This document shows, in pieces, positions 36,404 to 38,125 of a DNA stretch of 38,125 bases. Each line of letters begins with the position of its first letter. Positions within the stretch are counted from its first letter, which is position 1. The notes under the pieces are model-generated. The model was given only the letters and a program-made list of their open reading frames with translations. It did not search any database and was not told where the DNA came from. A program made the translations under genes and the position numbers. Source of the DNA: an uncultured Kiloniellales bacterium (GTDB taxonomy: Bacteria > Pseudomonadota > Alphaproteobacteria > Kiloniellales > JAKSDN01); the NCBI GenBank assembly GCA_947258885.1, contig CAMYKD010000034.1, forward strand, positions 1 to 38,125, given 5' to 3'.

Positions 36404-37919
<1,516 letters not shown>

Positions 37920-37989
37920 CGGAGGGGCCGCTCCGACCCCGCGAGGGATGCTAAGGGTCTGGAACCGAATTATCGATGCGTTTGGTCGC

Positions 37990-38078
37990 GGCGCAATCGG
38001 CCCGCTGTTAGGAGCGAGGAGGGCGGACATGCCGGGCATATTCGACGACGAGCGACGCGGCAGCGGGCCGATTGCGCC
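37990..38078. repeat. perfect 18-bp inverted repeat flanking a gene start
   Basis: GGCGCAATCGGCCCGCTG (37990-38007) is the exact reverse complement of CAGCGGGCCGATTGCGCC (38061-38078). The arms are 53 bases apart, and the spacer holds the ribosome site (AGGAGGG) and ATG of the next gene. In RNA the arms would form a long stem with two further G-U pairs inside (38008-38009 with 38059-38060), enclosing the start region in its loop. Confidence 0.85.
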
Positions 38079-38125
38079 CGATCCCCGCGGGACGGGGCCA
38101 ATTCCCGCCAGGGCCGCGTCGCGGA
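38029..38125 (+). CDS. N-terminus of an unknown protein (partial)
   Basis: An open frame starts at ATG 38029 and runs off the right edge after 32 residues, MPGIFDDERRGSGPIAPDPR followed by GTGPIPARAASR. A strong ribosome site (AGGAGGGCGG) supports the start. The peptide is hydrophilic, with a repeated GxGPI pattern (residues 11-15 and 21-25), and has no signal peptide. Part of its coding sequence is the right arm of the 18-bp inverted repeat. The family is not recognisable from the fragment. Confidence 0.55.
   Translation, partial: MPGIFDDERRGSGPIAPDPRGTGPIPARAASR

Follow-up and report, generated by a model that had tools for sequence, protein, structure and literature searches.

Typical MITEs are products of deletion and show no conservation of their interior. 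The element family described here resembles the MITEs derived from IS5 and IS630 in its terminal inverted repeats (TIRs), its TA/TNA flanks, its copy numbers of tens and its probable trans-mobilization by resident IS elements, and its ends are common to the IS5-family elements L194 and L198 and are IS630-like in other lineages; it differs in that the inside is the conserved part, whereas the ends vary between lineages. The RIME elements of rhizobia and the Rickettsia palindromic elements are palindromic alphaproteobacterial repeats of about 100–150 bp with other sequences; our family is likewise palindromic and alphaproteobacterial, and by these general descriptions it would differ from them in size and sequence. 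According to parts of one report, the Correia repeat enclosed elements of Neisseria (CREE/NEMIS) are small and non-autonomous, with inverted ends, TA targets and hairpins that are carried into mRNA (PMC2649163). Small size, non-autonomy, inverted ends and TA targets are shared with the present element, but CREE/NEMIS as portrayed in those parts measure 71–157 bp, fold into one structure and carry IHF or promoter features, whereas ours is ~270 bp, with two facing covarying hairpins and other sequences and hosts. The enterobacterial, ERIC-like RU-1/RU-2 elements are described in parts of another report as mobile palindromic repeats of small size in which ORFs may be present (PMC2759123), as is the case here; they differ in size, sequence and hosts, and those parts of PMC2759123 contain no covariation of two facing hairpins. 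The family was not found described in the open literature searched, mostly at record level (PMC10969869, PMC2649163 and PMC2759123 in part). As far as these open-literature searches show, this MITE-like family, the interior of which is a conserved structured single strand, is new.

The stretch analyzed (the window) is the whole of contig C34 of genome G000, 38,125 bp in length, and ends with the contig at 38,125. As the initial annotation had proposed, two 18-nt arms at 37,990–38,007 and 38,061–38,078, separated by a spacer of 53 nt, are complementary throughout (18/18), and they constitute the sole perfect inverted repeat of at least 12 bp with a spacer of up to 100 in the window. The view that such arms are improbable by chance was borne out as well: inverted repeats of at least 16 bp appeared in 0 of 100 first-order Markov simulations of the window, and a chance origin was ruled out by these simulations together with the uniqueness of the repeat in the window and the copies of the arm elsewhere in the genome. 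The annotation had also placed a Shine-Dalgarno sequence and an ATG between the arms and the right arm within the coding sequence; a purine-rich stretch and the ATG (38,030) are indeed flanked by the arms, and the ORF opening there includes the right arm.

The inverted repeat is the stem of a hairpin (hairpin 1) in a small non-autonomous MITE-like transposon of ~250–270 bp. It belongs to the left part of this element, which is interrupted by the contig end, so that the window contains only the first ~171 bp. Full copies on contigs C16 and C11 revealed the order TNA, ~31-bp TIR, hairpin 1, small GGGAC hairpin, hairpin 2, TIR and TNA. In the window, a TAA at 37,952–37,954 presumably represents the left-hand target-site duplicate (TNA), as judged from the sequence, from TAA on both sides of the C16 and C11 copies and from the empty site of the C11 copy in G001. 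It is followed on the plus strand by the left TIR (GGGTCTGGAACCGAATTATCGATGCGTTTGG; 37,955–37,985), which has an inverted match at the opposite end of the full copies, and by the 5′ arm of hairpin 1 (37,990–38,007), assigned by complementarity and covariation. The hairpin 1 loop (38,008–38,060) has the loop-base motif GGAG/CGAC, and RNAalifold with 22 sequences predicted in it an inner helix, in which Watson-Crick pairs alternate with tandem G.A/A.G, and an apex stem ATGC/GCAT. The ORF from the conserved ATG (MPGIFDDERRGSGPIAPDPRGTGPIPARAASR..., 38,030–38,125), identified from the sequence and the full copies, is truncated by the contig end, and the 3′ arm (38,061–38,078) was assigned by its complementarity. 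A small hairpin, ATCCCCGCGGGACGGGG, lies between the two large hairpins at 38,081–38,097 in the fold of the full copy C16, and the near arm of hairpin 2 (AATTCCCGCCAGGG) at 38,100–38,113 was assigned from the full copies, the fold and matches of the hairpin 1 model to hairpin 2 on the minus strand elsewhere; the far arm, the right TIR and the right target-site copy fall past the contig end.

Folding of the leader RNA, a check that the annotation had proposed, gave −61.1 kcal/mol (z −6.44) for hairpin 1 on the plus strand, versus −51.3 (z −3.89) on the minus strand. Paired TIRs were detected by a scripted threshold in 58 of the 74 hairpin 1 elements examined, and the remainder were mostly cut by contig ends or deleted. 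Some length variants were observed: L069 (G007), 160 bp long, contains hairpin 1 alone, with its arm continuing the TIR in a single unbroken perfect stem, and longer forms of hairpin 1 carry 27-nt internal duplications (L081, L146 and L148, G012/G024 lineages) or are 15 nt longer (L158 and L356–L358, G004 and G058).

The search for other genomic copies of the arm revealed 13 exact and 3 one-mismatch copies in G000, and with up to 3 mismatches the arm occurred at 56 places versus 23 for the reversed pattern. A 526-bp query matched the element on 12 contigs of G000, the window's own included, with one extra weak match on C78 in the gene part of the query. Contigs C34, C63, C131, C10 and C39 end in the element and C54 starts in it; as a dispersed repeat, the element therefore breaks assembly, which accounts for a series of contig breaks in these genomes. 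In the sister species G001, the site corresponding to that of the C11 copy is empty, with a net difference of 254 bp including one TAA, and thus the element moves. The target-site duplication is TA or TNA, of ambiguous exact length, and in some copies it differs between the two ends. TIRs, a target-site duplication with proof of insertion, and dispersed copies without a transposase gene, all features of MITEs, were each found. The annotation's suggestion of a REP-like chromosomal repeat family was therefore right as to the family but not as to its type: REP, BIME and REPIN sequences are palindromes of 20–40 bp without TIRs or target duplications, whereas this element has long TIRs, TA/TNA flanks and a length of ~250–270 bp. 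Its reading as a dimeric-regulator or recombinase site showed no sign of support of its own and was dropped. A phage or plasmid origin was rejected, with 0 matches of one full copy in the plasmid or phage collection, and the loop pattern had 0 matches in viral_contigs.

At the junction between nfeD and ubiD in another genus, a copy is present in three genomes (G050, G057 and G054) and the site is empty in others. Gene identities group G054 with species lacking the insertion; one inherited event was rejected on this ground, and sequence comparison indicates that the copies at this operon junction (L286, L287 and L288) probably represent two independent insertions. At the same junction, G041 contains ~2.7 kb of other DNA (G041:C10:92473-95206). 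Many unpaired TIR tips of 15–30 nt (TAGGGCCTGTKGACA...) with unrelated flanks and without the remaining element were observed in G012 and G024 (L170–L189), and these may be either deletion remnants or products of single-ended events. Elements reduced to pairs of TIR tips 45–50 bp apart were also seen (G024:C9:28847-28906, C17:29874-29937 and C22:120325-120384).

Comparison of the hairpin 1 arms among relatives, another check that had been suggested, revealed that the pairing is conserved and that both arms change together. In 22 diverse sequences, 17 of 17 stem pairs had changes on both sides, both sides were changed in 108 cells, and 95.6% of 528 cells were paired (alignment A1 was reduced from 25 to 22 sequences by omitting L080, L081 and L133, which have internal deletions, and A2 from 17 to 16 by omitting L097). 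This pairing level was reached in 0 of 500 shuffles, and it fell to 31–41% when one arm was slid by 1–3 columns. The annotation had taken a lack of conserved pairing in close relatives together with a lack of other genomic copies as a sign of coincidence; the pairing is conserved and copies are present. Individual copies decay by deletions, frameshifts and mismatches, and solo TIR tips and internal deletions are abundant, as anticipated for an ordinary MITE whose hairpins are functionless relics with complementarity left over from recent common descent. However, the arms are nearly unalignable between lineages and yet complementary within each, and unconstrained descent would lose pairing as fast as sequence; the covariation already disfavors such relics, which we regard as very unlikely.

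The structure extends into the loop. RNAalifold without any prior loop structure found extra pairs within it, of which 33-65 (17 and 5) and 36-62 (11, 9 and one U-A) swap G-C and C-G among lineages, with G.A/A.G steps between the Watson-Crick pairs (22 sequences) that we take to be sheared tandem pairs. The motif at the inner-helix base, GGAG/CGAC, is replaced jointly by GGCG/CAAC in 13 of 90 hairpin 1 rows of alignment A3 and in 3 of 37 rows of A4. Sequence comparison identifies hairpin 2 as the opposite-strand homologue of hairpin 1, so that the two hairpins face each other: within the same elements, model R1, built from hairpin 1 alone, recognized hairpin 2 on the strand opposite to hairpin 1 at E 1e-8 to 1e-4 (53 of 144 matches). 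Of the 31 pairs predicted for hairpin 2 on its own strand, 24 showed two-sided changes.

To distinguish the strands, we compared G-U with A-C mispairs in the stems. The ratio in the hairpin 1 stem was 12:1 in the 22-sequence alignment, 33:9 in 62 sequences below 97% identity and 11:2 in 27 sequences below 90%, and it was 28:2 in 35 sequences and 21:2 in 24 sequences from later lineages; the CM alignments behind all of these ratios except 12:1 favor G-U. When the alignment was scored symmetrically, hairpin 1 ranks 1–21 yielded 23:9. The later-lineage test omitted the loci of G242, which is the same genome as that of loci already used. Within hairpin 2 on its own strand, the inner helix had a ratio of 18:2 and the arms of 6:8, that is, no bias, and TIR pairs likewise exhibited no bias (47:44); thus not every stem behaves like RNA. 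Since the hairpin 1 arms covary and tolerate G-U far above A-C, the folded single strand seems to be the thing kept: selection on hairpin 1 seems to act on the plus strand in single-stranded form, either RNA or ssDNA. The TIRs bear no such sign, and the likelier reason for their matching changes would be that a single transposase recognizes the two ends. Of the annotation's mRNA stem controlling translation, it is the stem that stood, through arm covariation across lineages and the plus-strand bias of G-U over A-C.

Insertion sites were analyzed in 59 elements with both flanks, with neighboring genes assigned from ORFs and GC position by a simple rule. Between co-directional genes, 38 elements were in sense and 8 in antisense orientation (p 9e-6); 7 lay between convergent and 6 between divergent genes. 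Of 45 left flanks in which a gene is oriented toward the element, 24 have the stop codon of this upstream gene at the junction. Both this placement and the 38:8 sense bias were seen in the branch with IS5-type ends. The window's copy conforms to the placement pattern, in sense orientation ~35 bp past the stop of an aldehyde-dehydrogenase-like gene. Among 24 elements of later lineages (L325 omitted), 10 were sense and 8 antisense (4:0 in G058 and 6:8 in the others), and sense orientation as a general feature was rejected.

Taken together, we consider it probable that the element is a MITE-like transposon with a covarying single-strand fold, mobilized in trans, whose hairpin 1 is read into mRNA in the IS5-ended branch. 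The transposon part is well shown, and we infer the RNA role from sequence patterns, with support and with the failures stated here. Transposases of resident IS elements would move the element in trans, and shared end sequences suggest the IS5 family as the mobilizer in the order of this genome. In the IS5-ended branch, where sense-oriented copies fall in stop codons at which operon genes meet, hairpin 1 may be read into mRNA as an intercistronic structure, which could let the element be tolerated between translated genes by way of processing, of stability or of how the following gene is translated.

Alternatively, pairing may be needed at the DNA level, as single-stranded or cruciform DNA in transposition or replication, for example with a hairpin acting on the non-transferred strand at each end; mRNA would be uninvolved, and template switching may also maintain the arms. 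We hold this as a tentative possibility. Hairpin 1 (plus) mirrors hairpin 2 (minus), the best strand for each being the one that runs inward from its own end, and a full copy folded as single-stranded DNA forms a closing TIR stem that encloses the hairpins, far better than shuffles (z −9.85). The lack of G-U bias in TIRs and hairpin 2 arms and the lack of orientation bias in distant lineages also fit. However, template switching predicts equal numbers of G-T and A-C, in conflict with the 28:2 of hairpin 1 in the later set, and the sense bias of the IS5-ended branch would be unexpected. DDE transposases of the IS5 kind are not known to depend on hairpins of this sort, which also counts against a DNA-level role.

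The ORF within hairpin 1 had been annotated as the start of an unknown gene. Its ATG is present in 80 of 80 near-lineage copies, although the search pattern used favors ATG, and its product had no family match in Pfam or NCBIfam; this much agrees with the annotation, but the frame is lost in distant lineages. Among the 80 copies with both ends, the first stop coincided with the junction stop in 46 for the ATG frame, versus 1 and 5 for the other frames, and in some lineages paired +1/−1 indels keep the length of 192 nt while the peptide changes. The ORF is intact in 25 of 38 sense copies versus 7 of 21 elsewhere (Fisher p 0.028), and at empty nfeD-ubiD sites the stop and start codons overlap. 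These data would suit a scheme in which hairpin 1 supplies the ribosome site and start of an ORF of ~64 codons ending in the far-junction stop, so that ribosomes cross the element and the next gene is coupled, with the frame, and not the peptide, being what matters. However, a prediction set beforehand failed in the new, distant lineages, where the junction stop was in frame 0 in only 6 of 28 and in frames 1 and 2 in 2 and 3; the relay of translation was therefore rejected as a general feature and kept as a rival rather than as the explanation. In addition, only about half of the distinct lengths other than 192 are multiples of three, the Shine-Dalgarno-like stretch is missing in some lineages, and in this genome's full copies the ORF terminates 18 nt short of the element end. 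We judge such a relay unlikely.

The ends vary around a common core. Most elements in the order end in TAGGGYCTGT. G004 contains, as a candidate autonomous partner, an IS5-family element of ~856 bp (NF033580, E 5.6e-82) with an end, TAGGGCCTGTGGACATTC, like that of the G004 elements; one of its ends is identical over TAGGGCCTGTGGACA and the other is degraded. A second candidate partner, an 841-bp IS5-family element in G052 that is frameshifted as read, ends in TAGGTCCTGTTGACA. No transposase with the TIR end of this genome, GGGTCTGGAACGG, was found among the 11 DDE_Tnp_1 and 3 DDE_3 hits in G000. The same hairpin core occurs with CTAGAGCG ends in G305 and G138 and AGAGCG ends in G397 and L110, a tip also found on IS630-type elements in G055, G000 and G052, and with ATACCAA ends in G286 and G254. 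The hairpin core thus persists behind TIRs that are similar to those of different transposon families. IS630 is an unlikely mobilizer of the IS5-ended elements, as G012 and G024 have no DDE_3 hit. In these two genomes, no autonomous copy was found as a TIR pair 0.7–3.5 kb apart; a 1955-bp TIR pair in G012 was rejected as such a copy, as it encloses unrelated genes.

A broader scheme would make the facing-hairpin pair, and not the transposon's ends, the inherited unit, a conserved RNA-like module that spreads through Alphaproteobacteria by swapping its TIRs (IS5-like GGGYCTGT, IS630-like CTAGAGCG or the ATACCAA type, served by different transposase families), with the IS5-ended branch specialized on sense insertions into operon-junction stop codons and with an ORF relaying translation to the next gene; as a whole, we regard this scheme as doubtful.

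DNA similarity located the element in 22 of 58 genomes of the order, and the hairpin 1 model found relatives in 24 of 61 genomes at the level of the order and in 13 of 385 at that of the class, with the own genome and two of the order counted in. The loop pattern matched 55 stretches in genome_contigs, all titled Alphaproteobacteria and many of them Kiloniellales or Rhodospirillales; the named carriers include Denitrobaculum tricleocarpae and Oleispirillum naphthae. Since hairpin 1 loci were gathered by the loop pattern and regular expressions, the collection procedure itself accounts for part of the conservation seen in the loop letters and the ATG, and the unspecified loop positions and the model search are independent of the pattern. 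The Rfam 15 covariance models had 0 matches up to E 1 to L059, which contains a full copy, and a known RNA family among these models was rejected.

If the single-strand signature is true, a selfish bacterial element keeps an RNA or ssDNA fold across a class while replacing nearly all stem letters, and even the transposase-binding ends are replaced while the fold persists. It would then be testable how a mobile element lives within operons without breaking them, and whether MITEs are units of selection themselves as opposed to dead deletion products.

Upstream of the element, the aldehyde-dehydrogenase-like gene (36,404–37,919) contains an exact 19-bp tandem duplication at 37,669–37,706 that shifts the frame, which may reflect either a broken gene or an assembly error. 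Past the duplication, the frame is intact to the TAG at 37,917.
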